This document shows, piece after piece, positions 22,227-35,649 of a DNA stretch of 35,921 nucleotides (position 1 is the stretch's first letter; each line of letters begins with the position of its first letter). This DNA is from Nitrospiraceae bacterium (GTDB lineage: Bacteria > Nitrospirota > Thermodesulfovibrionia > UBA6902). The notes beneath the pieces were generated by a model. The model saw only the letters and a list, made by a program, of their open reading frames with translations, searched no databases and was not told the DNA's origin. Where the stretch lies: NCBI GenBank assembly GCA_003599505.1, contig QZKO01000071.1, positions 1-35,921 of the forward strand. The letters run 5' to 3'. The position numbers and the translations under genes were made by a program.

Positions 22227-22978
22227 TTTTTTACAATCACCATTGAAAAGTAGTTTAAATCTTCAGGTCCTGCGTCTCTGATATTATGAAATACCTTTTC
22301 ATCATCCATGCCGGCACGGGAGATGTACGCTGCCCTGTCGAGCAAGTCCATCTCATCGAGCAACTTCACAACCTCATCAAATACTTTATGCACCTTCATA
22401 AGCACAACCGTATCAAATGTCTCTAACGCCGATCTGAGGTCGCCCATATAATTTGCCGGCAGTATGGCAATCTTCTCATCTGCAAGCCCGAGGGATATTT
22501 TCGCGCTTGCAGCGGATGAGGTGATGGATGAAACGCCCGGTAAAATTTCTGTATTCAAACCCGGATGAAGGGTATTAAGCTTATCATACAAATAATAAAA
22601 CGTGCTGTAGATTGCAGGGTCCCCGAGAGTGAGAAAGGCAACGTCGCTTCCTTTTCTGAGCCTGTTCAGGATGGTTTCTGCTATTTCATTCCATTTATTG
22701 TTCAGCTCGTCTTTTTCTTCTGCCCCCTGTCTTTCTTGCCACTTGCCACTTGCCCCTTGCCCCTGTTTTTTTGTTTTTCTCATCGGAAAATGCGCCTCAA
22801 TAATCTCCTTGCCGTCGAGAGGAACCGCTCTCTCAACAATCGACAGGGCAAGGCTGCTGCCTTCTTCCCTTCCTTTGGGGACGCAAATCACCGGAGACTC
22901 CTTAATAATCCTTACGGCCTTGAGCGTCAAAAGCTCAGGGTCTCCCGGGCCGACGCCTATGACGTATAATTTACCCAT
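22223..22978 (-). CDS. cbiL: Cobalt-precorrin-2 C20-methyltransferase
   Basis: SAM-dependent C20 methylation of (cobalt-)factor II/precorrin-2, the first methylation after cobalt insertion. 251 residues. Motifs: LYVIGVGPGDPELLTLKAVR, VICVPKGREEGSSLA, VAFLTLGDPAIYSTFYYLY, TEILPGVSSITSSAASA and VVLMKVHKVFDEV. A heptamer array (22735-22765) adds QGQGASGKWQER in the variable region near residue 75. AGAGG precedes the ATG, which lies 22 bases inside the end of cbiET. Confidence 0.95.
   Translation of the reverse strand: MGKLYVIGVGPGDPELLTLKAVRIIKESPVICVPKGREEGSSLALSIVERAVPLDGKEIIEAHFPMRKTKKQGQGASGKWQERQGAEEKDELNNKWNEIAETILNRLRKGSDVAFLTLGDPAIYSTFYYLYDKLNTLHPGLNTEILPGVSSITSSAASAKISLGLADEKIAILPANYMGDLRSALETFDTVVLMKVHKVFDEVVKLLDEMDLLDRAAYISRAGMDDEKVFHNIRDAGPEDLNYFSMVIVKK
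22735..22765. repeat. Heptamer array TTGCCAC / TTGCCCC in cbiL
   Basis: About four copies, mixing TTGCCAC and TTGCCCC units. Encodes QGQGASGKWQER. Confidence 0.85.
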
Positions 22979-24273
22979 TTGCCTCTTACCCCTGTTATTA
23001 CAAACACCGGGTTCAGCGCGCTCATGTGTCGTTTATTGCCGACCGTCTTCGAGCGTGAAACCGATACCTCGCTTATTTCGATTATGAAACTGTTCTTTTC
23101 AAGACTCCGGACTGCCTCATTCAGTGTTTCAATTGTGGTTGCGTTTATAACAACAATGCCTGAACCCATCTTTCCGGAAATCAGGTCCACAATCGCATCC
23201 ATCCTCCCTCCGCTGCCGCCGATAAAGACCCTGTCCGGAGACGGCAAGGCCTTCAATGCCTCCGGCGCCTCTCCTTTTACAACCTCGATATTTGTGATAT
23301 TGAATCGGTTTATGTTTACAGCAATGTTATTAATCTGTTCTTCATCTTTTTCAACCGTAAAGACCTTAATGCCGTGAGAAAGCCGCGCGGCCTCAACAGA
23401 TACGGAACCGGAACCGGCTCCGATGTCCCAAAACACGCCTTTTTGCGGCAGCCTCAATTTATGTATCGTAACCGCCCGCACTTCGTCTTTGGTTATCAAT
23501 CCTTTTGTGTGCTGGATCTCGTCTTCTTTGAGACCGAAGGCGTGTAGGGGCAATTCATGAATTGCCCCTACGGCGCTGTTGCACTGTTGCGCTGTTGTAT
23601 CCTTTATTATCACCACATTCGGGTCTGCAAACGACATCCCGGCAATTTCCTCCGGCGCTCCCTCCGTAATTTTTTCATCAGGGTAACCGAGCTTCTCGCA
23701 AACATACATGACGATTGACAATTGATGATTGACGATCGACGATTTAATAACTCCTGCAATCTTGGCCGGGTTATTCACTTTATCAGTCAAAATTGCAATC
23801 TTGTCATGTTCGGCGAGCAACGATGGGATATCATCCAATTCATGCTCAAGCTTTCTCCTTTTTGCCGGGTCAGGGCCTCCGTGAAGGCTTATGAGGAGGG
23901 CATTTTGTGATGACTCCCTTATCCTTGAAAACGCTACCTGTAAGCTTGACAGGTCGGGATAAATTTCAACCGCGTCCCTGCCGAGTCTTTCTATGACCAG
24001 CCGACCAATGCCGAAAAACATCGGGTCGCCTGCACCCAGAAGGGCTATCTTCTTTTCTCTGTAATTGTCCCTGATATAATCCAGCATTTCATAAACGCTT
24101 TTGTGCACAATTACCTTATCCTTTACCGCAGCATACTCACTATAGTCCCTGAACACATCAAGAAGTCTGTTATTGGCGAGGACTACATCCGACGCAAACA
24201 GGGCGTCCGCTGCCTTCCTTTCAAGGGGCCTGAAGCCGATTCCTATAACATGGACCTTATTCACTGCTTGCAA
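22957..24273 (-). CDS. cbiET: CbiE-CbiT fusion: precorrin-6B C5,15-methyltransferase and C12 decarboxylase
   Basis: 438-residue fusion (CobL type). The CbiE part, residues 1 to about 215, has VHVIGIGFRPLE, VVLANNRLLDVF, ALLGAGDPMFFGIGRLV and VEIYPDLSSLQVAFSRI. The CbiT part, from about 235, has the SAM site VFWDIGAGSGSVSVEAARL, VFTVEKDEEQINNI, PDRVFIGGSGGRMDAIV and GIVVINATTIETL. The start is a TTG at 24273 with AAGGAGAGATAA upstream; a GTG three codons later is possible. Two inserts are translated: a heptamer array giving SSIVNHQLSIVM and a 28-bp palindrome giving VGAIHELPLH in the linker between the two domains. It overlaps cbiD by 17 bases. Confidence 0.95.
   Translation of the reverse strand: MQAVNKVHVIGIGFRPLERKAADALFASDVVLANNRLLDVFRDYSEYAAVKDKVIVHKSVYEMLDYIRDNYREKKIALLGAGDPMFFGIGRLVIERLGRDAVEIYPDLSSLQVAFSRIRESSQNALLISLHGGPDPAKRRKLEHELDDIPSLLAEHDKIAILTDKVNNPAKIAGVIKSSIVNHQLSIVMYVCEKLGYPDEKITEGAPEEIAGMSFADPNVVIIKDTTAQQCNSAVGAIHELPLHAFGLKEDEIQHTKGLITKDEVRAVTIHKLRLPQKGVFWDIGAGSGSVSVEAARLSHGIKVFTVEKDEEQINNIAVNINRFNITNIEVVKGEAPEALKALPSPDRVFIGGSGGRMDAIVDLISGKMGSGIVVINATTIETLNEAVRSLEKNSFIIEISEVSVSRSKTVGNKRHMSALNPVFVITGVRGKWVNYTS
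23544..23571. repeat. 28-bp palindromic element in cbiET
   Basis: Perfect palindrome with arms GTAGGGGCAATTCA and TGAATTGCCCCTAC. Translated as VGAIHELPLH in the CbiE-CbiT linker. Confidence 0.92.
23709..23743. repeat. Heptamer array GACGATT/GACAATT in cbiE
   Basis: About five degenerate copies. Encodes SSIVNHQLSIVM. Confidence 0.75.
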
Positions 24274-25435
24274 TTATCTCTCCTTCGTACGATACAAGAT
24301 GAGTTGAAACCGGAAGTCCTTCCGTTATCACTTCGGCATATTTCCTTGCTGCATTACAAACACCTGTAAAGGGGTTGGGGGTTAGAGATCGGGGCCTGGA
24401 ATTAATTAAATCAAATATCTCCCGTGCTGTATTAAACTCATAACTCATAACTCTTAACTCCAAATTCAGATTTTGTAAAAATTCTACCGCCTTCTTAATA
24501 TCAATCGCCCCGAACCTTACATGTGTTTGAGGCGTCGCCATTGCAATTTTAACCATTTTTGCCCACTGGGCGCAAAGATGTATCTTTTTAAAACCGTGTT
24601 TCTTTGCCTCGCGCAACGAGAATTCAAGGTAATCACCCATCAGCACATAACACTCTTCGGAAAGATTATATTTCTTCAAATGCGCCTTTTCTGATGACCT
24701 TCCGGCGGAAATGACAATCTCCCGATGCCCCATTGCCTTTGCAACGTCCATTGATGAAGAAATTGTTGCAGTCCACGCCTCAGTTGATATTGGTTTTACA
24801 ATTCCTGTTGTGCCGAGTATCGAGATGCCCCCGGTTATGCCGAGCCTGCTGTTCAGTGTCTTCTTCGCCAATTCTTCGCCCATAGGAACGGAAATGGTTA
24901 TTTCCAGGGGGCAGCGTGTAGGGTGTAGGGTGTAGGGTGTAGGGTCTTGTAACTTGTAACTGTCTTCAATCGCTTCCCTCACCGCTTCTTTTATCATTTG
25001 CCTTGGAACCGGATTTATCGCGGCCTCTCCGACGGGCACAGGGAGTCCGGGTTTGGTGACAATACCAACGCCTTTTCCACCTTTGATAATAAGTGATATA
25101 TTCTCAAACTGTTCACTTCTTATTTCTGACTTCTGACTTCTGACTTCTACTGTTGCTGCTATCTCCGCTCCGTTCGTCACATCCGGGTCGTCGCCGGCGT
25201 CTTTAATAACGGATGCGGTCGCGACGGCAGTTGATCCTTCGATTCTGAATGCTGAATCCTGAATCTTGAATTTATGTCTGCTTCCGTCAGGGAAGGGGAT
25301 CTCGACTTCAGTGACAAGTGACAAGTGACGAGTGATGAGTAGAGTCGCCGCTTTTGCCGCCGCCGCCGCGCACGCCCCTGTAGTAAATCCCGATCTGAGT
25401 TTGCCCCTTGCCCCTTGCCCCTTGCCCCCTTTCAT
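24257..25435 (-). CDS. cbiD: Cobalt-precorrin-5B C1-methyltransferase
   Basis: C1 methylation in the anaerobic pathway. 392 residues. The family start is clear: LRSGFTTGACAAAAAKAA (residues 13-30), then VEIPFPDGSRHKFKI, ASVIKDAGDDPDVTNGAEI, GKGVGIVTKPGLPVPVGEAAINPVP, GITGGISILGTTGIVKP and LCAQWAKMVKIAMATPQTH. The first 11 residues (MKGGKGQGARG) come from a TTGCCCC array, and at least four other arrays are translated: LLITRHLSLVTEV, EVRSQKSEIRSE, LQDPTPYTLHPTRCP and NLELRVMSYEF. The ATG lies 1 base after the stop of cbpB. Despite its repeats all conserved blocks are intact. Confidence 0.95.
   Translation of the reverse strand: MKGGKGQGARGKLRSGFTTGACAAAAAKAATLLITRHLSLVTEVEIPFPDGSRHKFKIQDSAFRIEGSTAVATASVIKDAGDDPDVTNGAEIAATVEVRSQKSEIRSEQFENISLIIKGGKGVGIVTKPGLPVPVGEAAINPVPRQMIKEAVREAIEDSYKLQDPTPYTLHPTRCPLEITISVPMGEELAKKTLNSRLGITGGISILGTTGIVKPISTEAWTATISSSMDVAKAMGHREIVISAGRSSEKAHLKKYNLSEECYVLMGDYLEFSLREAKKHGFKKIHLCAQWAKMVKIAMATPQTHVRFGAIDIKKAVEFLQNLNLELRVMSYEFNTAREIFDLINSRPRSLTPNPFTGVCNAARKYAEVITEGLPVSTHLVSYEGEIIASSE
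24436..24462. repeat. Heptamer array ACTCATA/ACTCTTA in cbiD
   Basis: About four copies. Encodes LELRVMSYEF near the CbiD C-terminus. Confidence 0.78.
24916..24945. repeat. Heptamer array GTGTAGG in cbiD
   Basis: Four copies of GTGTAGG, flanked by CTTGTAA x2. Encodes LQDPTPYTLHPTRCP. Confidence 0.88.
25114..25149. repeat. Heptamer array ACTTCTG in cbiD
   Basis: About five copies of ACTTCTG with variants. Encodes EVRSQKSEIRSE. Confidence 0.85.
25308..25429. repeat. Two heptamer arrays at the start of cbiD
   Basis: GTGACAA x4 (25313-25340) encodes LLITRHLSLVTE. TTGCCCC x4 (25401-25429) encodes KGQGARGK at the N-terminus. Between them lies the conserved SGFTTGACAAAAA block, untouched. Confidence 0.88.
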
Positions 25436-25436
25436 T

Positions 25437-26765
25437 TTAATACTGATACTCCATCACCATCTGGTCCATAGAATCCTTACGCAGGAGGTATTTCACCTTG
25501 TCCTCCGCTATCATCTTAAACGCCTGCCTGATTATCTCTTTATAGAATTCGCAGAACTCTGCTTTTTTATACATATTCCCTCTTGCGTACATCTCAGCGG
25601 GACAAGGCGAGCCGCATATATGTCTGAAATCACAAGTGTCGCACTCATCAATCTTTTCGACCATCCTCTCCCGGATCTGTTTAAACGGTTTTGAATTCAT
25701 TGCCTTATCAATCGAAGTCCTGAAGATATTGCCGCCTGAGAACTCCTTGAAGCCGATGAACTCTCCGCACGGCACCATCTCCCCGTCCGCTGTGACAGTG
25801 AGGAAGGTCCTGCCGCCTCCGCATGGCGAGATGTCGCACATCATGCGCCGTGCCGTAGGTGAAATAATCGCCAGAATCACATTGGTGAAATTTCCGATTA
25901 CTATCTGGCGTCCTGTTTTTTGCGTCAGCTCCATCGCGGTTTCAACCGCCTTCATCAGGTTCTTTGCATAGACCATGTCGTCCGGCTTCAGCCCCCATGA
26001 GCGCTTCTGTGTAAGCCTCACAGGGTTTAAAAGCACGCAGGGGACTTTTTTCCTATGGAGGAATTTTACAAGTTCGGAAAGCTTATTCACGTTATATTTT
26101 GAGACTGTCGCGATTACGTTCAATCCCTCATAACCTTTAAACCAGTCCAGCGCCTGCACAGCTTTTTTAAAATTACCCCCTCCGGTTACTGAAACGCGCG
26201 AACGGTTGTTGACGGCAGCGGTTGCAGCGTCAAGAGATATGCCGACGCCTACGCGGTATTGCTTCATGAACGTCACGTCCTTCTTTTCAAGCAAGAGCGA
26301 ATTGGTCTGAATGCCGAAGAGCATTTTCCCGTGATACTCCCTGATGGCCTGAAAAAGGATGTCTTTGACAAGCAGCGGCTCTGCCGCGTGAAAAACAATG
26401 ACCGGCTTTTTCTTTGCGCCTTTAAAATGGTCCGCGATTTTTGACAGGGCAGCGTCGAGCTGCTCCCATGTCATCTGCTTGCCGTGCTTTCTTATCTTTG
26501 AAGGTATATAACAGTAAGGGCAGTTGGCGTTGCACCTGTCCGTAGGGTCGATATACACACAGTTCAGAGGCTCGTTGAACCTGAAGTTGCGCATCTCAGT
26601 ATCAAGGTGTTCGTGCTCTTTTTTGTAGAGGCTGATTAAATCATCGGGGAGCATGAATTCCCCGTTGCTTCGTGGAAGCAGGCTCCAGAAGATGTTCTCA
26701 GGATCCAGCGCCAGTTTCCATTCTGCGTCAATATTTGAAAACGAAATCCCGCGTGTGTTGCTCAT
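25437..26765 (-). CDS. cbpB: Radical SAM/SPASM peptide-modifying enzyme, CbpB-like
   Basis: 442-residue radical SAM enzyme. The core has DPTDRCNANCPYCYIPSK (C-x3-C-x2-C binding the SAM [4Fe-4S] cluster) near residue 78. The C-terminal SPASM domain is complete: CDISPCGGGRTFLTVTADGE with the following MVPC (G-x4-C), then CDTCDFRHICGSPC (C-x2-C-x5-C-x3-C) and a final Cys in AEFCEF, enough for two auxiliary clusters. ATG 26765 is chosen for AAAAAGGAGAAAA upstream; the frame stays open to 26966, but that would translate a repeat-rich spacer. SPASM enzymes typically modify ribosomal peptides. From memory, the family TIGR04163 (peptide-modifying radical SAM enzyme CbpB) is described next to cobalamin genes with a small partner CbpA; that fits this locus exactly, but I could not run the profile. 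Confidence 0.85.
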   Translation of the reverse strand: MSNTRGISFSNIDAEWKLALDPENIFWSLLPRSNGEFMLPDDLISLYKKEHEHLDTEMRNFRFNEPLNCVYIDPTDRCNANCPYCYIPSKIRKHGKQMTWEQLDAALSKIADHFKGAKKKPVIVFHAAEPLLVKDILFQAIREYHGKMLFGIQTNSLLLEKKDVTFMKQYRVGVGISLDAATAAVNNRSRVSVTGGGNFKKAVQALDWFKGYEGLNVIATVSKYNVNKLSELVKFLHRKKVPCVLLNPVRLTQKRSWGLKPDDMVYAKNLMKAVETAMELTQKTGRQIVIGNFTNVILAIISPTARRMMCDISPCGGGRTFLTVTADGEMVPCGEFIGFKEFSGGNIFRTSIDKAMNSKPFKQIRERMVEKIDECDTCDFRHICGSPCPAEMYARGNMYKKAEFCEFYKEIIRQAFKMIAEDKVKYLLRKDSMDQMVMEYQY

Positions 26766-26890
26766 GTTGTGTTTTCTCCTTTTTAATTGAAATGGGTTCA
26801 GCAGATCAAACCGTCCAAAACGTTCAAGCGGATTAAACTGCTTGAGCGGCTTGAACGGTTCAAGCGGCGGATGCCGCCTGAACCATTCTC
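26766..26890. repeat. Spacer with direct repeats and hairpins between cbpA and cbpB
   Basis: Repeated TTCAAGCGG/TTGAGCGG units fill 26806-26866. Two hairpins are visible: GCTTGAACGGTTCAAGC (26849-26865) and GGCGGATGCCGCC (26866-26878). They could slow or stop transcription between the peptide gene and the enzyme gene, or protect the peptide mRNA. No T-run follows. Confidence 0.6.
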
Positions 26891-27025
26891 CTACAATGGC
26901 ATCTTCTTCTTCGGCACGTCGCCGTACATCACGAAGTGCGTAAGCCCGTTGGCTGTCTTGGCGCATTTCATGTGAAATGAAATGGCGGCTTTTGTCTTTT
27001 TCTCAGCCTTATTTGCCTTGTTCAA
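26891..27025 (-). CDS. cbpA: CbpA-like small precursor peptide (candidate RiPP precursor)
   Basis: 44-residue peptide. It starts at TTG 27025, directly after AAAGGAGGTGA (27031-27041), a near-perfect ribosome binding site. An in-frame TGA two codons upstream fixes the start, so no ATG is available. The N-terminal third is Lys/Ala-rich (MNKANKAEKKTKA), leader-like. The remainder is AISFHMKCAKTANG then LTHFVMYGDVPKKKMPL, with a single Cys. Its stop lies 125 bases before the radical SAM/SPASM gene on the same strand. Small size, a strong ribosome binding site, a leader-like start and a directly following maturase fit a modified-peptide precursor. From memory, CbpA is the name given to the small partner of CbpB near cobalt/cobalamin genes. 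The product and any function are unknown. Confidence 0.75.
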   Translation of the reverse strand: MNKANKAEKKTKAAISFHMKCAKTANGLTHFVMYGDVPKKKMPL

Positions 27026-27051: not shown

Positions 27052-27079
27052 GTAGGGGCAATTCATGAATTGCCCCTAC
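27052..27079. repeat. 28-bp palindromic element at the end of cbiO
   Basis: Perfect palindrome, arms GTAGGGGCAATTCA and TGAATTGCCCCTAC. It encodes the last CbiO residues CRGNS and its central TGA is the stop codon. It also sits 27 bases before the start of cbpA. Confidence 0.92.
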
Positions 27080-27995
27080 AGTCTGTGTTCTGTGCTCTGT
27101 GTTCTTTGTTCTCTATTATTTTTAAAATCTCCCTCCGCGCCTCACCGATGGTGAGGGGAATGCGGTCAAAATCCATTTTGTCCTCATGCTTTAATTTATA
27201 AAGCAGCTCAGCAATATGCGGCAGCCTGAGCTTGATATTCGCCATGTCTTCCGGCGCGTCAAAAACCTCTTCCGGCGTGCCGCCTCTGGTAATTCTTCCC
27301 TTGCTCAGGATATAAAGACTGTCAAGGAATACCGGCACAAGGTCCACGCTGTGAGTCGCCATTATAACAGTCACTCCGCTTTCCCTGTTCAATTTCCGAA
27401 GCAGCTTCATCATCCTGTATTCACCCATCGGATCAAGCCCGGCAGTGGGCTCATCAAGCAGGAGCGTTTCATGCCCCATTGCCAAAAGCCCGGCAATGCA
27501 CGCGCGCTTTCTCTGACCAAAGCTCAGGTTATGGACGGATTTTTTTTCAAGCCCTGTAAGCTCTACTTCATCCAGGGCAGACATGACCCTCTGTTTTACT
27601 TCATTGGAATTAAATCCCATGTTCATCGGGCCGAAGGCCACGTCCTCAAAGAGCGTAGGAGCAAAGAGTTGGTCATCCGGGTTCTGGAACACAAGCCCGA
27701 CCTTTTTGTATATCTCCTTTGGCGACAGTGTGCTGATATCAATTCCGCTTAAGCGGATACTGCCTTCAATCCCCTTGAGCAGCTTGTCCATGGCCCGAAG
27801 CAGGGTTGTCTTGCCCGAACCATTGGCCCCCAACAGTCCGACAAACGCTCCCTTTCTCACCTCAAGGTTTATGCCAGATAGCGCATGCGTTCCATCCGGA
27901 TATTTGTATGAAACGTTCTTAACTGAAAAAGCAGAGGCACACGCTATGTCCTGACTGCTGACTCCTGACTCCTGACTGCTTTTCATATCATCCAT
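27063..27995 (-). CDS. cbiO: ECF cobalt transporter ATPase
   Basis: ATP-binding subunit of the CbiMNQO cobalt importer. 310 residues. ABC motifs: Walker A LLGANGSGKTTLLRAM (residues 54-69), Q-loop VFQNPDDQLFAPTL, signature NLSFGQRKRACIAGLL, Walker B TLLLDEPTAGLDP and H-loop MATHSVDLV. The ATG at 27995 overlaps the end of cbiQ by 13 bases, with GGGGGTGCGGT before it. The N-terminal SSQESGVSSQD and C-terminal EHRAQNTDCRGNS come from heptamer arrays and the palindrome, outside the conserved domain. It is the last transporter gene before the CbpA/CbpB pair. Confidence 0.94.
   Translation of the reverse strand: MDDMKSSQESGVSSQDIACASAFSVKNVSYKYPDGTHALSGINLEVRKGAFVGLLGANGSGKTTLLRAMDKLLKGIEGSIRLSGIDISTLSPKEIYKKVGLVFQNPDDQLFAPTLFEDVAFGPMNMGFNSNEVKQRVMSALDEVELTGLEKKSVHNLSFGQRKRACIAGLLAMGHETLLLDEPTAGLDPMGEYRMMKLLRKLNRESGVTVIMATHSVDLVPVFLDSLYILSKGRITRGGTPEEVFDAPEDMANIKLRLPHIAELLYKLKHEDKMDFDRIPLTIGEARREILKIIENKEHRAQNTDCRGNS
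27086..27117. repeat. Heptamer array CTGTGTT variant at the end of cbiO
   Basis: About four copies with changes (CTGTGTT, CTGTGCT, TTTGTTC). Encodes NKEHRAQNTD, like the TQNTEHRTQNTG of the BPL_N protein. Confidence 0.78.
27947..27980. repeat. Heptamer array CTGACTG/CTGACTC at the start of cbiO
   Basis: About four copies. Encodes SSQESGVSSQD, residues 6-16 of CbiO. Confidence 0.8.
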
Positions 27996-28777
27996 ACCGC
28001 ACCCCCCGCAAGCACTACTATGAAGGCAGCGGCAAGCTCTGCGGCCTTTAAAGGCTGACTCTTTAACAGTGGGATATCACCTGTGTAGCCCCTCTGGGTC
28101 ATTGCATCCGCTGTCTTCTGGCTCTGCTCAAAGCCGCGCAAGACCAGTGAGCCTGTCAATACTCCAAATGAGTTCAGACTCTTTCTGAGCCCGGCATATC
28201 CAAGCCGGTTCTTCTGAGCGCTGTAGATAGTTTCAGCGTCCTCGAGAAAAACAAATAAATACCTGTAGGCAAACATCATGATCTCAATGAAAGGCCGGGG
28301 CACGCGCAGCCATGAGAGCGCTGCAACAAACTCGATAAACGGCGTTGCAAACCCAAGCGCGATTACAAGAGAGACTCCGCCAATGATTCTCGATGCAATC
28401 CTGATACCCTCCATAAGACCGTCCCAGTGACCCGTTAACATGAGAAATGGGAAGTGGGAAGTGGGAAGTGATATGACAAACAGCGTATCTTGCCCGGTGA
28501 AAAGACACTTCAATACTAAAACAACGACTGCCAGAAGCAAAGGCTGCGCCATCCTTAAGAGCAACGCGCGCATCGGCACGCCCATCCTCACGCAAAGCGT
28601 AAAAGAACAGACCGCAACAAGCATTGGGAAAAATATTCCCTTGTAGCTGAGCGCCATAAGCAGAAGGGCCAGCGTCACAAGCAGCTTGACCCTTGCGTCT
28701 ATGCCTGAAAGAAAATGCCTCTTACTGAAATGTTCGGAAAAACATTTACACGTTTCCACTGACTTTCCCCTTTCCAT
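27983..28777 (-). CDS. cbiQ: ECF cobalt transporter transmembrane protein
   Basis: Energy-coupling membrane subunit, 264 residues. It begins with the family SGIDARVKLLVTLALLL and has five or so membrane segments (LLVTLALLLMALSY, FPMLVAVCSFTLC, LLLAVVVLVLKCLF, GVSLVIALGFATPF, AAFIVVLAGGAVWM). The coupling helices lie in the region from AYRYLFVFLEDAETIYSAQK to RGFEQSQKTADAMTQRGYTG, with the two Ala-Arg-Gly-like motifs represented by AQKNRLG and AMTQRGY. A heptamer array gives LPTSHFPF in a loop. The long overlap with the cbiN-like gene (32 bases) suggests either coupling or a later start at a GTG six codons in. Confidence 0.93.
   Translation of the reverse strand: MERGKSVETCKCFSEHFSKRHFLSGIDARVKLLVTLALLLMALSYKGIFFPMLVAVCSFTLCVRMGVPMRALLLRMAQPLLLAVVVLVLKCLFTGQDTLFVISLPTSHFPFLMLTGHWDGLMEGIRIASRIIGGVSLVIALGFATPFIEFVAALSWLRVPRPFIEIMMFAYRYLFVFLEDAETIYSAQKNRLGYAGLRKSLNSFGVLTGSLVLRGFEQSQKTADAMTQRGYTGDIPLLKSQPLKAAELAAAFIVVLAGGAVWMI
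28444..28470. repeat. Heptamer array GAAGTGG in cbiQ
   Basis: Three to four copies of GAAGTGG. Encodes SLPTSHFPF in a predicted loop. Confidence 0.8.
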
Positions 28778-29123
28778 GCTCTGCTGTCTTTGTTCTGCCT
28801 TCTGTCAGCATCCTCCAGTAATAACCGGCAGCAAACCCGCCTATGACGCCGCCAATCAGAAACATAAACAAAAGCAGGTCTCCCTGGTCCGTATTTATCA
28901 AAGGCTCCTTTGCCTCCCTGCCGTGGTCCTTTGCGTACTTCTCCACAACAGACTCATCCACACCGCTCCATTCCGCTGCAAAGGCAGAAGTGGGAAGTGA
29001 GAAGTGGGAAGTGAGAAGTAAGGCGACAGTGAACAGTGAACAGTAAACAGTGAACAGTAAACGACTCAACCGGTTTTTTGTCTTTTTAACTCTTAACTCT
29101 GAACTCTTAACTCTCAACTTCAT
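28746..29123 (-). CDS. Small membrane subunit of the cobalt ECF transporter, CbiN-like
   Basis: 125-residue protein between cbiM and cbiQ, the usual place of cbiN. An N-terminal signal or anchor region of about 50 residues is encoded almost entirely by three heptamer arrays. Then follows AAEWSGVDESVVEKYAKDHG, an external acidic segment, and one membrane helix, LLLFMFLIGGVIGGFAAGYYW. CbiN proteins have two membrane helices with a loop between them that enters the CbiM channel; the layout fits, although sequence identity is not certain. AGAGGAGG precedes the ATG and the ATG overlaps the cbiM stop (ATGA). It may instead be another small auxiliary subunit. Confidence 0.65.
   Translation of the reverse strand: MKLRVKSSELRVKKTKNRLSRLLFTVYCSLFTVALLLTSHFSLPTSAFAAEWSGVDESVVEKYAKDHGREAKEPLINTDQGDLLLFMFLIGGVIGGFAAGYYWRMLTEGRTKTAEHGKGKVSGNV
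28987..29117. repeat. Three heptamer arrays forming the secretion leader of the CbiN-like protein
   Basis: GAAGTGG/GAAGTGA x5 (28987-29021), CAGTGAA/CAGTAAA x5 (29027-29062) and TTAACTC/TGAACTC x4 (29086-29117). On the coding strand they read MKLRVKSSELRVKK, RLLFTVYCSLFTVA and LLLTSHFSLPTSAFA: the basic start and the hydrophobic core of the signal sequence. Confidence 0.9.
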
Positions 29124-29878
29124 AATGCCGCCTCCTCTGCTTTTATCACGCCGAATTTTACCAGGAGATCCGCCCGTCTTTTAAAGAGCAGTTTGACCAT
29201 GCCCGCAGTCATTGCGCCCTCGACTATGCCAAGCGGCAACTGCGTGGGTATAAACGCAATGAGTATCTTTGTAAACAGAGGCCAAAAAGGTTCATCTCCC
29301 CTGATGCCTGCAGCAAGCTCAACAGATGTTGTGAAATAGATCGCCCAGTCGGAAATAAGGCCTGCAAAAAATGCCGAGAGCGCGAGGCTGACATTGAATT
29401 TCCTTATGAGCTTGAATACCGCGATGCCTGAAAAGGCGCCCATTATCCCCATTGATACAACATCCGCTCCCCATGTCGTGAGCCCTCCGTGTGCAAAAAA
29501 TAGCGCCTGAATGAGAAGCGCCACACCGGTAATCAAAACAGTTATAGAGGGGCCGAGGAGTATTGCCGGAATAGCCGTGCCGCCCGGATGAGAGCATGTG
29601 CCGGCAGTAGGCACAGGAATCGGCATAAGTGATACAACAAAAACAATCGCAGCCATTAAACCGACGAGCGGCTTGATTGACAAATCCTGCGCTGAAAGGA
29701 TTTTGAGTTTCCTCATCCCTAACGCAACAAAAGGAATTGCAACTGCAAACCACAGCGCCGCCCAGTTAAGCGGCAGAATGCCCTCGGAGATGTGCATGGC
29801 GCAGGCTTCGCCCGCAGTAAGCAGTAAGCAGTAAGCAGTAAGCAGAAAAATAAATATTCCATAATTTTTAAGTTTCAT
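29120..29878 (-). CDS. cbiM: Cobalt ECF transporter substrate-capture protein
   Basis: Metal-binding S component of CbiMNQO, 252 residues. After a signal peptide the mature start is MHISEGILPLNWA, with the conserved Met-His that binds Co(II) after cleavage. About seven membrane segments follow. TAGTCSHPGGTAIPAILLGP and LFFAHGGLTTWGADVVSMGI are CbiM/NikM signatures with the metal-binding His residues. The signal peptide core LLTAYCLLLTA is encoded by four copies of one heptamer. The ATG follows the stop of the outer-membrane gene with no spacing, and GAGGGGG is upstream. Confidence 0.95.
   Translation of the reverse strand: MKLKNYGIFIFLLTAYCLLLTAGEACAMHISEGILPLNWAALWFAVAIPFVALGMRKLKILSAQDLSIKPLVGLMAAIVFVVSLMPIPVPTAGTCSHPGGTAIPAILLGPSITVLITGVALLIQALFFAHGGLTTWGADVVSMGIMGAFSGIAVFKLIRKFNVSLALSAFFAGLISDWAIYFTTSVELAAGIRGDEPFWPLFTKILIAFIPTQLPLGIVEGAMTAGMVKLLFKRRADLLVKFGVIKAEEAAL
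29814..29845. repeat. Heptamer array GCAGTAA in the cbiM signal peptide
   Basis: Four and a half copies of GCAGTAA. On the coding strand CTGCTTA is read in all three frames in turn, giving LLTAYCLLLTA, the hydrophobic core of the signal peptide. Confidence 0.92.
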
Positions 29879-30664
29879 TTAAAACCCCCTCGCAAGTCCT
29901 GCAAGAACTGTATAGTCTGTTTCAGATTTATTAATTCCGGCTTTGACGCCAAAATCCACATCAAGTCCTTCTGATACAGAATAAATTAATCCTCCCAGGA
30001 TAAAAGCAGGATGTGTATATGATCCCTTGTCGGCATTCCTCTCCATACCGGTGTTTGCAACGAGCCGGAGGCTTTTTGCAACCTCTGCTTCGGCCGCAAG
30101 TGATACATGCCATATGTCTTTTCTATTGGCTTCTTTGTTTTCTTTTAGTTTGTATTCATTACGTGTATATCCTAAGTTGAGATGAAAGGCCCATGGCTCA
30201 ATCTCTCTTGTAGTTATTAAAGCAACCCCGTATGATGTTCTGCCATTTCCAAGCCCTTTCTCTTCATCGCCTGCAGGCAACGTAATCCCCGGCTTTACAG
30301 CAAGGCTCAAACCGTCTCCCTCAAAAAATCTCCATTTCACTTCCAGAGACATGTCAGAAATTCCATCTTCATCTGATATTATCTCTCCGTCTTCTTTAAC
30401 CCTGCTCCATTGATAAGGCAAGCCAATGACAACATCCGTGTTGTCTGTGATTCCATAAGACAGTATTGCCGCCAGCTCGCCGCCGGTCTCTTTGACAATT
30501 ATACCGGCTTCTGTTTCTTTATCATGTGTGAATTCACTATTCATCTCAATCGAAAATTTTCCTCTACCCTGTGACCCTGTGTCATCAGTTATAAGCGGAT
30601 GCGCACCGAATGCCGCTCCATACCATAATACGATTACAATCATTGTAAAAACTTTCTTAATCAT
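29879..30664 (-). CDS. Outer-membrane beta-barrel protein under cobalamin riboswitch control
   Basis: 261-residue protein with a signal peptide (KKVFTMIVIVLWYGAAFGA, cut before HPLITDD). The mature part is rich in alternating hydrophobic and polar strands (GKFSIEMNSEFTH, TDVVIGLPYQWSRV, LSLAVKPGITLPAG, WAFHLNLGYTRNEY, LDVDFGVKAGINKSE) and ends with Phe, as outer-membrane barrels do. It resembles the transporter family annotated as MetA-pathway of phenol degradation (PF13557), a poorly characterised barrel group. It is the first gene after the B12 riboswitch and directly precedes cbiM, so it is probably the outer-membrane entry for cobalt or a related ligand. That function is inferred from context. 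The ribosome binding site GGAAGGAG is at 30670-30677. Confidence 0.75.
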   Translation of the reverse strand: MIKKVFTMIVIVLWYGAAFGAHPLITDDTGSQGRGKFSIEMNSEFTHDKETEAGIIVKETGGELAAILSYGITDNTDVVIGLPYQWSRVKEDGEIISDEDGISDMSLEVKWRFFEGDGLSLAVKPGITLPAGDEEKGLGNGRTSYGVALITTREIEPWAFHLNLGYTRNEYKLKENKEANRKDIWHVSLAAEAEVAKSLRLVANTGMERNADKGSYTHPAFILGGLIYSVSEGLDVDFGVKAGINKSETDYTVLAGLARGF

Positions 30665-30688
30665 TTTTTCTCCTTCCGTCGAGGTTTT

Positions 30689-30836
30689 AGGAATAAACGG
30701 TCTTCCGGCTCAGGGCTGCCTACTTACCCGTCTTCCCATGTCGAAGATTCGGCACAGTGACTTCTATTGGGTTTTCGTTCCCTTTACGGCTGCGGGACAG
30801 CAGGGGATTCTCACCCCTTTCCTCGTTTTTATTCCC
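30689..30836 (-). promoter_or_regulatory. Cobalamin (B12) riboswitch
   Basis: Read on the minus strand it has the conserved core blocks: GGTGAGAATCCCCTGCTGTC, then CCGCAGCC, the B12 box GTCACTGTGCC, ATGGGAAGACGGG and GAGCCGGAAGACC. The closing helix forms from GGAATAAAAAC (30825-30835) and GTTTATTCC (30690-30698). No terminator hairpin with a T-run follows; the downstream ribosome binding site lies 12 bases from the end, so control is probably at translation. A CGAGG (30821-30825) at the 5' flank could pair with CCTCG (30680-30684) just before the ribosome binding site. It controls the outer-membrane protein and cbiM-N-Q-O. Confidence 0.95.
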
Positions 30837-30851
30837 TTTTTCTTAAATTTC

Positions 30852-30889
30852 GTTTACTTCTCACTTCCTACTTCTGACTTCTTACTTCT
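30852..30889. repeat. Heptamer array ACTTCTG/ACTTCTC before the riboswitch
   Basis: Five copies of an ACTTCTN-type unit lie just downstream of the cbiXC stop and just upstream of the riboswitch. Noncoding. Confidence 0.8.
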
Positions 30890-30894
30890 GATCA

Positions 30895-31896
30895 TCACCT
30901 CCCTCCCTCATCCGCAATTTTTAAAAGCGCATTTACAATCGCCACGGCGACCGGTGTGCCGCCTTTTCTGCTGAGGTTTGTTATAAACGGGAACGTCTGT
31001 TCCGCAAGCAGCGCCTTTGATTCCAACGCTTTTACAAAGCCGACAGGAACGCCGACGACAAGTTTAGAGTCAAGAGTTAAGAGTTCAGAGTTAAGAAAGA
31101 GATCTATCACCTTCAATAAAGCAGTTGGGGCATTGCCGATAGCTATGATGCCGATATTGTTGTTCTCTCTTAACACTCGCTCTATCCCCATCTCGGCTCT
31201 TGTTTTGACTCTTGACTCCTGACTCTTGACTCTTGACTCCTGAATCCCGCAGACCACCTTCCCGCCCCATTTTTCAAGCAGCTTTTTGTTTATCCCGGCT
31301 TTGACCATTTCAATGTCGGTGAGAATGTCTTTGCCGGCCTTTATCGCGGCGAGTCCGGTCTCTATCGCGTCGGGATGAAATACGAGACTGGTTTTAAATT
31401 CAAAGTCAGCGGTTGAATGTATTACGCGTTTTATAATCGGCAGCCTTTCCTCCGGGACATCGCTCAAGTCCAGCTCTTCGGAGATTATCTCAAAGCTCCG
31501 CTTCTCGATCTCCGCAGGCTTCAGGCCGGATGCCGAATGGATCCTTTCAAGCACCACCTGCGTCATCTTGCTGTGGATGCCGAGGGGTTCTGTATAGATG
31601 AACTCCACATGCGGAAACATCCCTTCCGCTTCTTTTACGATAGCCGGAATGTCCGTAGTTACATGCATGCCGCTGCTCAAAAAATACGGATGGATGACGA
31701 TCTTTTTTGCGCCGTCATTTGCACAGTTTTTGATAGCCTCCATTATGTCAGGCTGGGCAAATTGCAGGTAAGCGGCGCGAACGCAGGAGTTGGTGCAGCC
31801 GGGATGTATTGTGTTATGCAGCAACATCGCCACATTTTCAAGATTGTTTGCGTCTTTCCTGGGACTGCCGTGTCCCGCGATAAGAATTATTTCCAT
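30895..31896 (-). CDS. cbiXC: CbiX-CbiC fusion: sirohydrochlorin cobaltochelatase and cobalt-precorrin-8 methylmutase
   Basis: 333-residue fusion. CbiX short form (residues 1 to about 125) inserts Co(II) into sirohydrochlorin: IILIAGHGSPRKDANNLENV with the metal-binding His, then AAYLQFAQPDIMEAI, IHPYFLSSGMHVTTDIP with the second His, and IYTEPLGIHSKM. CbiC (from about 135) moves the C11 methyl to C12: PIIKRVIHSTADFEF, HPDAIETGLAAIKAG, NNIGIIAIGNAPTALLKV, VVGVPVGFVKALESKALL and RKGGTPVAVAIVNALL. ATG 31896 is chosen because GGGAG lies just before it and the protein then begins like CbiX. Heptamer arrays give QESRVKSQESRVK and LNSELLTLDSKL. It overlaps cbiA by 10 bases. Confidence 0.95.
   Translation of the reverse strand: MEIILIAGHGSPRKDANNLENVAMLLHNTIHPGCTNSCVRAAYLQFAQPDIMEAIKNCANDGAKKIVIHPYFLSSGMHVTTDIPAIVKEAEGMFPHVEFIYTEPLGIHSKMTQVVLERIHSASGLKPAEIEKRSFEIISEELDLSDVPEERLPIIKRVIHSTADFEFKTSLVFHPDAIETGLAAIKAGKDILTDIEMVKAGINKKLLEKWGGKVVCGIQESRVKSQESRVKTRAEMGIERVLRENNNIGIIAIGNAPTALLKVIDLFLNSELLTLDSKLVVGVPVGFVKALESKALLAEQTFPFITNLSRKGGTPVAVAIVNALLKIADEGGR
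31060..31097. repeat. Heptamer array AGAGTTA/AGAGTCA in cbiC
   Basis: About five copies. Encodes LNSELLTLDSKL in CbiC. Confidence 0.8.
31204..31244. repeat. Heptamer array TTGACTC/CTGACTC in cbiC
   Basis: About five copies of TTGACTC and CTGACTC. Encodes QESRVKSQESRVKTR. Confidence 0.85.
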
Positions 31897-33404
31897 AATG
31901 CTCCCATACAAAATTTTATAAAGTTTTCTGCTATTGAATGGTTACTTCCAAAGTGGATATGAATATAACCGGCAAGTGTGTTTCTCACCTGATAGCCCTC
32001 GTCCGGCAGGCTCTTCCCGGAACCGTCTTTAAGAGAGTAAATTAGTGCGGAAGCGCGTAAGCTCGTAAGTTCGGAAGTTACTTTCGCGCTTCCCCGCTTC
32101 CGCGCTTCCCCGCTATTTACAATCTCCGAATAATGAAATTCATGACCCCGCAATGACGCTCCTTTTTCACCAAGGATGGAGTCATGTTTCAATGTCACTT
32201 CTCTGTAACCGAGTTTTGCCCTTCCTTTTGTCATCTTTGTTTTTAACGGAAATAGCCCGACCATTGAGTAAAAAACATTGTTAAAATCGTAGATGCCTTC
32301 TGTAAGATACATGAATCCTCCGCATTCGGCATACACAGGCATATCGTTCAGCGCAAATTCCCTGACCGATTCAATCATGGATTTATTGGCGGATAACTGT
32401 CCGGCATAAAGCTCCGGATAACCACCGCCGAAATAAAGCGCGTCAACATTGTCAGGTATTTTACTGTCGGATAACGGGCTGAATATAACAATTTCCGCGC
32501 CTGTATTTTTAAGCAGATCAAGATTGTCCTCATAGTAGAAGCAGAAGGCATTGTCGTAAGCGACGGCGATCTTAAGCGTGGAAGCGTGGAAGCTCGGAAG
32601 TTCGGAAGGTGGAAAGTCAGGAAGCGACCTCTGTTCTTTAGTACTTCTTCGCTTCCCCGCTTCCCCGCTTCCCCGCTTTCGCACTATCTCATCCACATCA
32701 ACATACTTCAAAACCACATCCGCCAGTTTATTTATCGCTTCTTCACTGATGGGATTCTCTTCCGCTGTTGTCAATCCAAGATGCCTGTGAGGAATTTCAA
32801 AATCCGGGTCCCTCGGAAGATAACCAAGCACAGGTACATCCTGCACACTGTCACTCAGTCTTTTGAAGTGATTTTCTGATGCAACACGGTTGAAGATAAC
32901 ACCGATTATTAGCGCGGAAGCGCGGAAGTGGGGAAGCGCGGAAGTTACATTAAGGAGTTTTTTTTCTTTTGCACTTCTGCTCTTTTGCACTTCTGCACTG
33001 TATTCTATGAATCCTTTCACAATCGCTCCCGCACTCTCAGCCATCCCGTATGCATCAACAATAAGTATAACCGGCAGATTAAGTGTTGCTGCTAACATCG
33101 CTGTGCTGAATTTCCCATCGTATAATCCCATTACGCCTTCAACAACAGATATGTCAGCATCCTTAGAGTATTTCTTAAAACAATCCCTGACATAATTTTC
33201 TCCACACATCCAGAGGTCAAGGTTGCGGGCTGTCCTTTCAGTAATAAGCTTGTGCAAACCTGCATCAATAAAATCAGGGCCTGTCTTGAATGATTGAACG
33301 TTTAACCCTTTTTTCTTCAATGCAGCGAGGATGCCAAGTGTAACGGTAGTCTTGCCGCATCCGCTGTGCGTTCCCGCTATGATTATGCCTTTCATGTTTT
33401 CCAT
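31887..33404 (-). CDS. cbiA: Cobyrinate a,c-diamide synthase
   Basis: Glutamine- and ATP-dependent amidation of the a and c side chains of cobyrinate. 505 residues. The P-loop IIAGTHSGCGKTTVTLGIL, FKTGPDFIDAGLHKLIT, VEGVMGLYDGK and GVIFNRVASENHF belong to the synthetase domain. The class I amidotransferase domain has ALYFGGGYPELYAGQLS and the nucleophile in YAECGGFMYLTEGIYD; YIHIHFGSN near the end holds the catalytic His. Arrays of the GCTTCCC/GGAAGCG type are translated into KRGSGEAGKRRSTKE and similar inserts in the linker between domains and near the C-terminus. Confidence 0.95.
   Translation of the reverse strand: MENMKGIIIAGTHSGCGKTTVTLGILAALKKKGLNVQSFKTGPDFIDAGLHKLITERTARNLDLWMCGENYVRDCFKKYSKDADISVVEGVMGLYDGKFSTAMLAATLNLPVILIVDAYGMAESAGAIVKGFIEYSAEVQKSRSAKEKKLLNVTSALPHFRASALIIGVIFNRVASENHFKRLSDSVQDVPVLGYLPRDPDFEIPHRHLGLTTAEENPISEEAINKLADVVLKYVDVDEIVRKRGSGEAGKRRSTKEQRSLPDFPPSELPSFHASTLKIAVAYDNAFCFYYEDNLDLLKNTGAEIVIFSPLSDSKIPDNVDALYFGGGYPELYAGQLSANKSMIESVREFALNDMPVYAECGGFMYLTEGIYDFNNVFYSMVGLFPLKTKMTKGRAKLGYREVTLKHDSILGEKGASLRGHEFHYSEIVNSGEARKRGSAKVTSELTSLRASALIYSLKDGSGKSLPDEGYQVRNTLAGYIHIHFGSNHSIAENFIKFCMGALWK
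32048..32113. repeat. GGAAGCG / GCTTCCC array near the end of cbiA
   Basis: Units of 7-8 bp (GCGGAAG, GTAAGCTC, CGCTTCC) in both orientations. Encodes NSGEARKRGSAKVTSE and LTSLRASALIY in CbiA. Confidence 0.75.
32575..32685. repeat. Paired GGAAGCG and CGCTTCCC arrays in cbiA
   Basis: GTGGAAGC-type units at 32577-32615, then CGCTTCC-type units at 32648-32680 in the opposite sense. Encodes the interdomain linker (RKRGSGEAGKRRSTKE, PPSELPSFHAST). Confidence 0.78.
32911..33000. repeat. GGAAGCG and ACTTCTG-type arrays in cbiA N-terminal half
   Basis: GCGGAAG units (32911-32945) followed by TTTTGCACTTCTGC repeats (32966-33000). Encodes LPHFRASALI and AEVQKSRSAKEKK. Confidence 0.72.
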
Positions 33405-33430
33405 TGTGTTCCGATGTCATTCCGGCTTCT

Positions 33431-33458
33431 GTAGGGGCAATTCATGAATTGCCCCTAC
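33431..33458. repeat. 28-bp palindromic element between cobD and cbiA
   Basis: Perfect palindrome identical to those at 23544 and 27052. Its left end on the minus strand supplies the TAG stop of cobD (33455-33457). Confidence 0.92.
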
Positions 33459-34609
33459 GTTAAACAGGTTTGCAATTCTGCTAACAGCATCCTGTTATGC
33501 TTCCTCGATTTCACCGCCACCCTGATATAGGAGCCATCAAGTCCCTTAAAGTTTGAGCAATCCCTCACCAGGATGCCTTTTCCCCTCAACTTTTGAACGA
33601 TGTGGTTGCCGTTCATTATTCTTAGCAAATAAAAATTGGCATCCGAGGGGAAATACTTTATTCCCATCTTATTAAAACTATTTTCAAGAAATTCCTTTTC
33701 GCTTTTAATCAGCCTTTGCGTTTTATCTGCATATTCACTGTCGTAAAGTGCAGCAATTGCTGTCTTCTGAGCCAGATTATTTACAGTCCATGGTTCTTTA
33801 AAAGCCGTTATTTTATAAATTAAACCCGGATGAAAGATGCCATATCCAATCCTCAATCCCGTGAGGGCGTAGAACTTTGTCATGGACCGAAGCACTATCA
33901 GGTATGGGTTGTCCTGTACATGCCTGATCACAGACTCTTCCGGTGTAAAATCAATAAAAGCCTCATCCACCACAAGTACACATTTCATATCTCTTGCAGC
34001 TTCGGCAATTCTTAATACAGCCTTTCTTTTAAGAAGATGTCCTGTCGGGTTATTAGGATTGCAAAGAAACACCATATCGCACTTTGCCTCTACTTTTGAC
34101 TTTTGACTTTTGACTTTTGCCTTCATGTCCCCTCTCATGGCTGATATGAATTCGTCAGGATTTATTTCAAAGTTGTTCTCTTTTTTTAACTCATAACTCA
34201 TAACGCTTAACTCCGAACTCAATTTACAGGCCCTTTCATATTCCGAAAAAGTCGGCGCGGGAATGAGGACTTTTTTGGGTTTCAGCGCTCTCGGGATAAG
34301 ATAAATAAGCTCTGTGCTCCCATTTGCACACAGTATTGTTTCAGGGTCAATACCGTGATACTCCGAGAGGTTTTCCCTCAATATTTTCACATCCGGGTCC
34401 GGATAATTAATCAAACCGTCCAGGTTTTTTATAATTACATCTTTTACTTTCCCTGAGATGCCGAGAGGATTGATCGACGCACTGAAGTCGATCAACTTCT
34501 CCTCCGGAACGCCGAGATCCTCAGCAACCCTGTAAATATTGCCGCCATGATCGTAAGAGTTATGAGTTAAGAGTTTAGAGTTAAGTGAAACGGATTTCAT
34601 CGGTAGCAT
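33455..34609 (-). CDS. cobD: L-threonine-O-3-phosphate decarboxylase
   Basis: PLP enzyme that makes aminopropanol phosphate for the nucleotide loop. 384 residues, HisC-like aminotransferase fold. HGGNIYRVAEDLGVPEEKLID, DFSASINPLGISGKV and INYPDPDVKILRENL are CobD signatures. Further on: FLCNPNNPTGHLLKR, VVDEAFIDFTPEESV, the PLP Lys in RSMTKFYALTGLRIGYGI and IRVAVKSRKHNRMLL. ATG 34609 is chosen because AGGAG lies 6 bases upstream; the next ATG at 34600 overlaps the cbiB stop. The open frame further upstream lies inside cbiB. Heptamer arrays give LNSKLLTHNS, LSVMSYELKKE and KAKVKSQKSKVEAK. The stop comes from a palindromic element. Confidence 0.93.
   Translation of the reverse strand: MLPMKSVSLNSKLLTHNSYDHGGNIYRVAEDLGVPEEKLIDFSASINPLGISGKVKDVIIKNLDGLINYPDPDVKILRENLSEYHGIDPETILCANGSTELIYLIPRALKPKKVLIPAPTFSEYERACKLSSELSVMSYELKKENNFEINPDEFISAMRGDMKAKVKSQKSKVEAKCDMVFLCNPNNPTGHLLKRKAVLRIAEAARDMKCVLVVDEAFIDFTPEESVIRHVQDNPYLIVLRSMTKFYALTGLRIGYGIFHPGLIYKITAFKEPWTVNNLAQKTAIAALYDSEYADKTQRLIKSEKEFLENSFNKMGIKYFPSDANFYLLRIMNGNHIVQKLRGKGILVRDCSNFKGLDGSYIRVAVKSRKHNRMLLAELQTCLT
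34092..34120. repeat. Heptamer array ACTTTTG in cobD
   Basis: Four copies. Encodes KAKVKSQKSKVEAK. Confidence 0.88.
34553..34586. repeat. Heptamer array AGAGTTA near the start of cobD
   Basis: Four to five copies (AGAGTTA, TGAGTTA, AGAGTTT). Encodes SLNSKLLTHNSYD just before the conserved HGGN block. Confidence 0.85.
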
Positions 34610-35649
34610 ACACCGCTCCTCAGACATACAACTATCAAAGCAAACAAAAATCCCAGGCAAGAAGTAATCTTGACAATCAATACTGCTTTTTCTGAAGCGC
34701 TTAAAAGCTCATTATCAAATTCTATCCCCTTAACTCTTGACTCCTGACTCTTAACCCCGGGGTCCTCCCCGATGTACTGTTTCTCAACTATTATTCCCCC
34801 GTAGAAAGAAGGCCCCCCCAGTCTCACGCCCAGTGCGCCTGCCATTGCCGCTTCAGGAATGCCGCTATTTGGGCTCAGATGTTTTCTACCATCACGCAGC
34901 ATTGTTTTCAGTGACAAGTGACAAGTGACAAGTGACAGGTTAAGAATAAATGATGAAATAACAATCAATACTCCGGTAATCCTTGCAGGGATATAATTGA
35001 CAATGTCGTCAAGCTTTGCCGACGCCCATCCGAAGTTTTTGTAATTTTCGTTTCTATAGCCAACCATAGAATCAAGCGTATTAATTGCTTTATACGCCAT
35101 TGCCATAGGCAGACCGCCGATTGCAAAGTAAAACATGGGTGCAATAATCCCATCAGAAGCGTTTTCAGAGAGCGTCTCGATAGTCGCCTTCAAGATTCCC
35201 TTATTATCTAATTGGGTAGTGTCCCTCCCTACAATGAAGCCAAGCTTTTCCCTTGCACCTTCTTTATCTCCCATATTCACAGCGTCAATTACTGTCTTAC
35301 CGGATTTGATGAGGTCGTTTGTTGCAAAAGTAGTTGATGTGAGGAAGCCAAGCAACAGCAAAGGGAGCAGGGAGTAGGGGGTAGGGAGTAGAAATTTGTT
35401 GAGTATATAGAACGTTGAATACGTGATACCAATTATAACCGCAACAAGCAAGACGCCGGACAACTTTTCCGCCAGGTTCCCCCTTTTTACTTCCCCGCTT
35501 CCCCGCTTCCCCGCTTTCGCACTTCTTAGCGCCCTCTCCATCTTCTCAATACCCCACCCAATTATCCTCACAGGATGCGGCAGCCACCTCGGGTCGCCGA
35601 TTATAAGATCAAGGATGTAAGCAAATGTTAATATCGCAGCGTCTGTCAT
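34597..35649 (-). CDS. cbiB: Adenosylcobinamide-phosphate synthase
   Basis: Membrane enzyme that joins aminopropanol (phosphate) to adenosylcobyrate. 350 residues from ATG 35649, which overlaps the cbiP stop (ATGA). FAYILDLIIGDPRWLPHPVR and IGWGIEKMERALR at the start, VGRDTTQLDNKGILKATIET, LSENASDGIIAPMFYFAIGG, YKAINTLDSMVGYRNENYKNFGWAS (split motif) and GIPEAAMAGALGVRLGG are family motifs. Four to five membrane segments. Inserts from repeats: RSAKAGKRGSGEVKRG, LPTPYSLLPLLLL, LSLVTCHLSLKT and VKSQESRVKGIE. Next is cobD, whose product supplies the other substrate. Confidence 0.94.
   Translation of the reverse strand: MTDAAILTFAYILDLIIGDPRWLPHPVRIIGWGIEKMERALRSAKAGKRGSGEVKRGNLAEKLSGVLLVAVIIGITYSTFYILNKFLLPTPYSLLPLLLLGFLTSTTFATNDLIKSGKTVIDAVNMGDKEGAREKLGFIVGRDTTQLDNKGILKATIETLSENASDGIIAPMFYFAIGGLPMAMAYKAINTLDSMVGYRNENYKNFGWASAKLDDIVNYIPARITGVLIVISSFILNLSLVTCHLSLKTMLRDGRKHLSPNSGIPEAAMAGALGVRLGGPSFYGGIIVEKQYIGEDPGVKSQESRVKGIEFDNELLSASEKAVLIVKITSCLGFLFALIVVCLRSGVCYR
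34911..34939. repeat. Heptamer array GTGACAA in cbiB
   Basis: Four copies. Encodes NLSLVTCHLSLKT. The same unit occurs in cbiD, cbiH and the BPL_N gene. Confidence 0.9.
35366..35520. repeat. GTAGGGA and CCGCTTC arrays in cbiB
   Basis: GGAGTAG/GGGTAGG units at 35366-35390 encode LLPTPYSLLP, extending a membrane segment. CCGCTTC x3-4 at 35489-35520 encodes KAGKRGSGEVKRG. Confidence 0.78.

Follow-up and report, generated by a model that had tools for sequence, protein, structure and literature searches.

The window analysed here, 35,921 nucleotides of contig QZKO01000071.1 from a Nitrospiraceae bacterium, encodes between a cobalamin riboswitch and a cobalt importer a small barrel protein of the PF13557/COG4313 family, and the subfamily to which it belongs probably supplies the missing outer-membrane entry channel for cobalt, nickel and iron ions. 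The barrel is likely to act as a TonB-independent diffusion channel through which divalent transition-metal ions, or weak complexes of them, cross the outer membrane. On the evidence of gene sequence and context a role of the subfamily in acquiring such metals can be proposed with high confidence, and the passive passage of M2+ through an acidic-lined lumen is put forward with less certainty. It is commonly supposed that ferrous iron and nickel cross the outer membrane via general porins. A subfamily that spans three metals, with a sensor for each, and several unrelated pumps offers a direct and testable answer to the question of outer-membrane entry, which is most pressing for bacteria that have no TonB receptors. 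For cobalt, a 2021 review recorded that no specific outer-membrane receptor had been confirmed (PMC7689651). The fold and the family are already known, as are metal-linked outer-membrane channels in other families and Fur-controlled porins before feoAB. What appears to be new is the link of one PF13557 subfamily to importers of cobalt, of nickel and of iron at once, which was not found described in the open-licence literature, where no paper linking PF13557/COG4313 to feo, nik or cbi was found. The Pfam family name, which refers to phenol degradation, is misleading for members that lie beside cbi, nik or feo genes.

The locus lies on the minus strand in the order cbiX-cbiC, riboswitch, barrel gene, cbiM, cbiN-position gene, cbiQ and cbiO. 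The initial annotation, confined to 29879-30836, described a cobalamin riboswitch followed by a 261-residue barrel-like protein, with a signal peptide and a C-terminal Phe, and then cbiM with no spacing; each of these elements is borne out and the locus is real, although the right end of that interval falls 33 nt short of the aptamer 5' end at 30869 (minus strand). The aptamer, of the adenosylcobalamin type, occupies 30682-30869 (RF00174, 74.8 bits, E=7.7e-17, complete 1-189), and no other RF00174 match occurs among the 150 of 168 candidates scored in the genome, which is 95% complete. Only 17 nt separate it from the ATG of the barrel gene (29879-30664), a stretch that holds the ribosome-binding site GGAAGGAG and is too short to include an intrinsic terminator, such that translational control of the barrel gene is likely; comparably short spacing is seen in two relatives (L004 and L005). 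The barrel gene ends in ...GGTTTTAA, and its TAA abuts the ATGAAA... of cbiM at 29878 with zero gap. The cobalt importer is represented by CbiM, the ECF substrate-binding component (29120-29878, PF01891 E=1.3e-51; NF006184 E=3.8e-74, above its cut-off, with TIGR00123 slightly below its own), CbiQ, the transmembrane component (27983-28777, PF02361 E=4.1e-38), and CbiO, the ATPase (27063-27995, PF00005 E=4.6e-29), in CbiMNQO order. The 125-residue membrane protein at the cbiN position (28746-29123) is assigned by position and conservation, being kept in L004, L005, L014, L030 and L037; in spite of its right place and size it has no CbiN match in Pfam or NCBIfam.

Several other features of the cbi cluster may be recorded. 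Upstream of the riboswitch, cobaltochelatase and precorrin-8X methylmutase are fused in one cbiX-cbiC open reading frame (30895-31911, minus strand, PF01903 and PF02570). The cluster also holds a gene for a radical SAM-SPASM protein (25437-26966), retained there in L004, L014 and L030, and an HD-domain-like reading frame (21441-22226) between cobI- and cobM-like genes, in the same place in L004 and L014. Many of the cbi enzymes contain short dispersed in-frame repeats (31060-31240, 18763-25435 and 31887-34660), with peptides such as KSQESRVKTR, SELLTLDSKL and RKRGSAKV, which look like small mobile repeats inserted without breaking the coding regions.

The protein itself scores 85.6 bits against PF13557 (E=7.1e-24), above the curated gathering score of 22, in keeping with its earlier description as PF13557-like, and matches no NCBIfam model. 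The plug domain PF07715, already noted as missing from the protein, has no match in it or in the whole window genome. A signal peptide, read from the sequence (30602-30664, minus strand, approximately residues 1-21, MIKKVFTMIVIVLWYGAAFGA), ends in ...AAFGA before HPL, and the C-terminal residue is Phe, an aromatic residue being found there in nearly all of 33 aligned subfamily sequences. The mature N-terminus, ahead of the first strand, is a conserved segment (30557-30601, minus strand, residues 22-36, HPLITDDTGSQGRGK), within which P23, D27, D28, G30 and G33 are invariant in 33 relatives and H22 is found in 29. By analogy with the solved channel Pput2725 this strongly conserved segment may plug the lumen; its length fits an insert of about 14 residues, and model confidence is low at the segment. 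Conservation in the 33-sequence alignment covers HPLITDDxGTQGKG at the mature N-terminus together with D77, D104, E108, K110, W111, R112, K124, P130, G132, H161, N163, W185-H186 and K241. D104, P130 and G132 are invariant in the 33 rows, residues 130-132 reading PTG in the majority and PAG in the window protein; this Asp and P-T-G cluster is equated with that of Pput2725 by spacing alone. A shared metal site formed by H161 and H186 was considered and dropped, since the modelled strand register puts the two near opposite ends of the barrel and PF13557 proteins from outside the subfamily share H161.

The AlphaFold2 model, built with 33 aligned sequences (mean pLDDT 77, pTM 0.74, most of residues 1-29 at low confidence), predicts strands at 37-52, 55-71, 76-91, 94-116 (kinked at 103-104 and taken as one), 119-129, 144-155, 158-169, 184-196, 199-210, 220-231, 234-243 and 251-260. 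This is consistent with a barrel of 12 strands, a number that results from merging the kinked strand, as DSSP gives 13 segments. A PDB sequence search with the family profile found no relative; the fold search did, with FapF (5o65) the top-ranked solved structure by Foldseek and VIA-align (Z 23.6, rmsd 3.1, 229 aligned residues) and the COG4313 channel Pput2725 (4rl8) behind it (Z 23.1, rmsd 3.3, 239 aligned). The initial annotation had placed the protein in the outer membrane, and the signal peptide, the predicted barrel and the identity of the best solved matches, both outer-membrane channels, point the same way. When the facing of the strands is guessed from hydrophobicity, the inward side chains of the window protein comprise 17 D/E vs 5 K/R, an excess not seen in some nickel-type members (L017 has 11 D/E and 12 K/R inward).

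The main difficulty for reading the barrel as a metal-ion channel is the behaviour of Pput2725. The channel proposed earlier fits the fold and the genomic context, but this solved relative opens only above 150 mV, with poor conductance below, and holds detergent in its lumen. The authors of that study prefer hydrophobic molecules, leaving through a lateral gate, as the substrate; they also report that ions pass through the narrow channel and that the cavity on its outer side is strongly electronegative (PMC4493636). The substrate of this COG4313-type barrel might therefore be an amphipathic or hydrophobic carrier of metal, such as a metallophore or lipid-like chelate, that is released laterally into the membrane or else into the periplasm and then feeds the importer. 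The P-T-G motif associated with the proposed lateral gate is retained at residues 130-132 of the subfamily, PAG in the window protein, and other COG4313 proteins handle trichlorophenol or sphingosine (PMC4493636). Such a carrier nevertheless seems unlikely, as the subfamily serves bare-ion importers for cobalt, nickel and iron (ECF, FeoB and HupE), no metallophore synthesis genes were recognised among the barrel-gene neighbours that were read, and the hosts seem to belong for the most part to anaerobic lineages, in which M2+ would be soluble. With regard to the diffusion channel, a flux of trace metal would demand far less conductance than a bulk porin provides.

The association with metal importers was followed in three surveys. 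In the first, GTDB contigs were scanned by sequence alone, blind to context, and 27 of the 37 relatives recovered are paired with metal genes, the other 10 being in other contexts. Cobalt-type cbiMNQO within B12 clusters adjoins the barrel in five (L004, L005, L014, L030 and L037); other CbiM-family ECF importers do so in 11 (L015, L016, L017, L019, whose contig starts inside the ECF operon, L020, L021, L022, L024, L026, L032 and L038), and feoA/feoB in 10 (L007, L008, L009, L011, L012, L013, L023, L029, L033 and L035). In the remaining case, L018, the barrel is flanked by a B12 riboswitch and by a cbiK whose N-terminus is leader-like. Profile matches were obtained for representative neighbours, namely NikR, FeoA, FeoB, Fur, CbiK and CbiM. 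For the second survey CbiM-family, subfamily, FeoB and all PF13557 genes were located, and their distances measured, in the window genome and 60 relatives. Here 23 of 28 subfamily genes lie directly upstream, on the same strand, of CbiM/NikM (16) or FeoB (7). Not one of the 29 remaining PF13557 genes is close to either (Fisher p=2e-11); these 29 are the right control because they belong to the same Pfam family and the same genomes. The third survey covered 297 genomes of the phylum to which G061, the genome carrying L015, belongs, and 37 of them had the subfamily; 25 of the 41 subfamily genes in the 40 regions read are with an importer (17 CbiM/NikM, 8 feoB) and in 4 further genes only nikR or fur is visible.

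This second phylum also contains other partners. L185 has the order cbiC, hupE, riboswitch, barrel, uncharacterised gene, cbiD (HupE PF04955 E=2.4e-59), and in L218 the barrel gene follows immediately on one for a P19-type protein of Fe2+ transport (PF10634 E=8e-67). As HupE and P19-linked systems are unrelated to ECF or Feo, the pairing follows the metal and not one operon. Two DUF4198-type proteins lie by the barrel in L188, and in L149 a gene of this family, NikK-like, is between barrel and nikM. The barrel gene comes either first or last, after nikO or feoB. The enrichment near cobalt genes implied by the initial annotation is thus strong for the subfamily; as for its proposal of a partner for cobalt, the link to metal holds and the dedication to cobalt does not, since the subfamily as a whole is not cobalt-specific and nickel and ferrous-iron importers are paired with it in comparable numbers.

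Between a quarter and a third of subfamily members adjoin no recognised metal gene, and some adjoin chemotaxis receptors. Genes for methyl-accepting chemotaxis proteins lie directly beside the barrel in L006 (10001-11952; L006/L073), L010 (10001-12341), L083 and L194 (780-4941), in the last between two barrel copies, an arrangement that possibly reflects metal taxis. These neighbours could mean that the barrel acts in metal sensing at the outer membrane, or as a partner in chemotaxis, and not as a channel, which is very unlikely given that they are a minority and that most members are found with importers and no signalling genes. Among other neighbours, a DUF2325 (PF10087) protein recurs in fur/feo/barrel clusters (L007:9703-10005, L008, L033, L081, L211 and L212), and a selenocysteine tRNA gene is found just upstream of the barrel in two distant loci (L087:1028-1118 and L214:4120-4214). 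In the Chlorobium group (L025, L027 and L039) the barrel is between mscL-like and TPR genes, and a CopA-type ATPase is encoded some 1.3 kb upstream; these members, with no adjacent metal importer, perhaps have a different role.

The regulatory sites divide in the same way as the importers. A B12 riboswitch is directly upstream of 12 of 13 cobalt-type barrel genes, and all 28 of the nickel- or iron-type genes that were tested lack it; beyond the window it directly precedes the barrel in L004, L005, L014, L030, L037, L076, L078, L079, L088, L091 and L184. Fur boxes of the TGATAATGATTATCA type, with at most 2 mismatches and within 300 nt, occur before 6 of 14 iron-type genes (0.04 expected), 0 of 13 cobalt-type and 0 of 17 nickel-type. 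The delta-proteobacterial NikR consensus is GTGTTAC-N13/14-GTAACAC (PMC545781), and a NikR-like GTRNYAC-N13-RTRRYAY is present in 9 of 17 nickel-type loci and in no other type (0.00 expected), numbers that are partly fitted as the pattern was composed after the first sites had been seen. A loose-mismatch scan for Fur and NikR sites was noisy at single loci, and stricter patterns with dinucleotide shuffles separated the types cleanly. The second phylum, which was not used in composing the NikR pattern, gives fewer sites with the strict patterns: NikR-like in 4 of 18 ECF-type and Fur-like in 3 of 9 iron-type loci, with Fur-like sites of 1 mismatch also in two loci of no assigned metal type (L193 and L203) and B12 riboswitches before the barrel in L184, L185 and L214. 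The nikR gene itself precedes the barrel in L021, L149, L192, L216 and L222, and in the first four of these the order is nikR, barrel, nikM. The regulator thus matches the metal of the partner importer, with no crossed cases. Control by a B12 riboswitch and a place in a B12 synthesis cluster would also suit a barrel that takes up cobalamin or a corrinoid precursor instead of cobalt; this is highly improbable when relatives 60-67% identical to the window protein accompany importers for nickel and for iron, controlled by NikR and Fur sites, and when the window encodes an extended corrin pathway.

In a tree of 56 sequences the cobalt, nickel and iron labels interleave, with at least 13 switches among the 43 labelled rows, and the barrel has therefore been re-paired with importers repeatedly. 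Strongly supported branches alone force 5-6 changes per metal label; the labels cluster more than they do after shuffling, in line with some inheritance. Barrel-free slots are seen in L130-L133, L135-L139 and L147, where cbiM directly follows cbiXC without a riboswitch or the riboswitch is immediately before cbiM, and no substitute outer-membrane protein was found in these slots. As several relatives have cbiM or nikM without the barrel it is dispensable there, and its absence from the slot in close relatives makes it an optional module. That an ordinary porin entered the cbi operon by chance, to which these empty slots might point, is scarcely credible against the 23/28 vs 0/29 comparison, the recurrence of the pattern in another phylum, the three regulators that match their metals, and at least 13 partner switches. 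Some barrel genes are broken by frameshifts or stops (L024, L030, L040, G057:C16 and G286:C80), which may represent decay in some lineages or assembly errors. A TonB-receptor plug domain is present in 48 of the 61 genomes, the window genome being one without, and its absence is weakly linked to a cobalt-type barrel (5/13 vs 5/48, p=0.03, kinship ignored).

For the metal-ion channel, the following scheme can be proposed. Co2+, free or in small weak complexes, would enter the periplasm through the barrel and be taken up by the adjacent CbiMNQO importer, and plentiful adenosylcobalamin would, through the riboswitch, lower the synthesis of both. Passage of M2+ would be passive, via a narrow lumen with an acidic excess, with the pump keeping the periplasmic level low. 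One type of barrel would serve cobalt, nickel and iron across the subfamily, the metal being set mainly by the sensor (B12 riboswitch, NikR or Fur) and by the inner-membrane pump that removes the ion. It is reasonably probable that this amounts to a modular, TonB-independent entry route in several phyla, in which the barrel is placed next to whichever importer matches the sensor (CbiMNQO, NikMNQO, FeoAB, HupE or P19-linked systems) in Nitrospirota, Desulfobacterota-like lineages and others. If so, the outer membrane would be opened to a given metal only on demand.

Comparison with known systems places the protein with the COG4313/PF13557 channels Pput2725, SphA and TcpY, with which it shares the profile family, some 15 residues before strand 1, a strand list that fits 12 strands, and the conserved Asp and P-T/A-G. 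Aromatic or lipid substrates are associated with the known members, whereas members of this subfamily go with metal importers and sensors and share conserved HPLITDDxGTQG and W-H motifs. FapF, an amyloid export barrel (5o65), has the same barrel fold, but it carries a periplasmic coiled coil and a helical plug and exports Fap proteins (PMC6173800), and a domain of this kind could not be accommodated in the window protein. The Bradyrhizobium japonicum protein MnoP, an outer-membrane channel for Mn2+ (Hohle et al. 2011, as cited in PMC6011978), and RopAe, for copper, are likewise described there as metal-regulated outer-membrane barrels for a divalent ion; each serves one metal, and the comparison with the window protein is by description. 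RopAe is a PF02530 (Porin_2) protein from which MnoP is described as distant (PMC6011978), and PF02530 is not among the Pfam matches of the window barrel. Cooperation between OmpC and FeoB is already known (PMC7315122), and the same idea underlies the Fur-regulated porins of Geobacter and Desulfuromonas, psp and an OprB-family porin before feoAB, the latter in the order Fur box, porin, feoA-feoA-feoB; these belong to PF07396 and PF04966, not PF13557, and serve iron only (PMC545781). Finally, the predicted cobalt TonB receptors of Novosphingobium are also B12-riboswitch outer-membrane proteins beside a cobalt importer, but they have a plug (PMC7689651), whereas the window protein is a small barrel without one.
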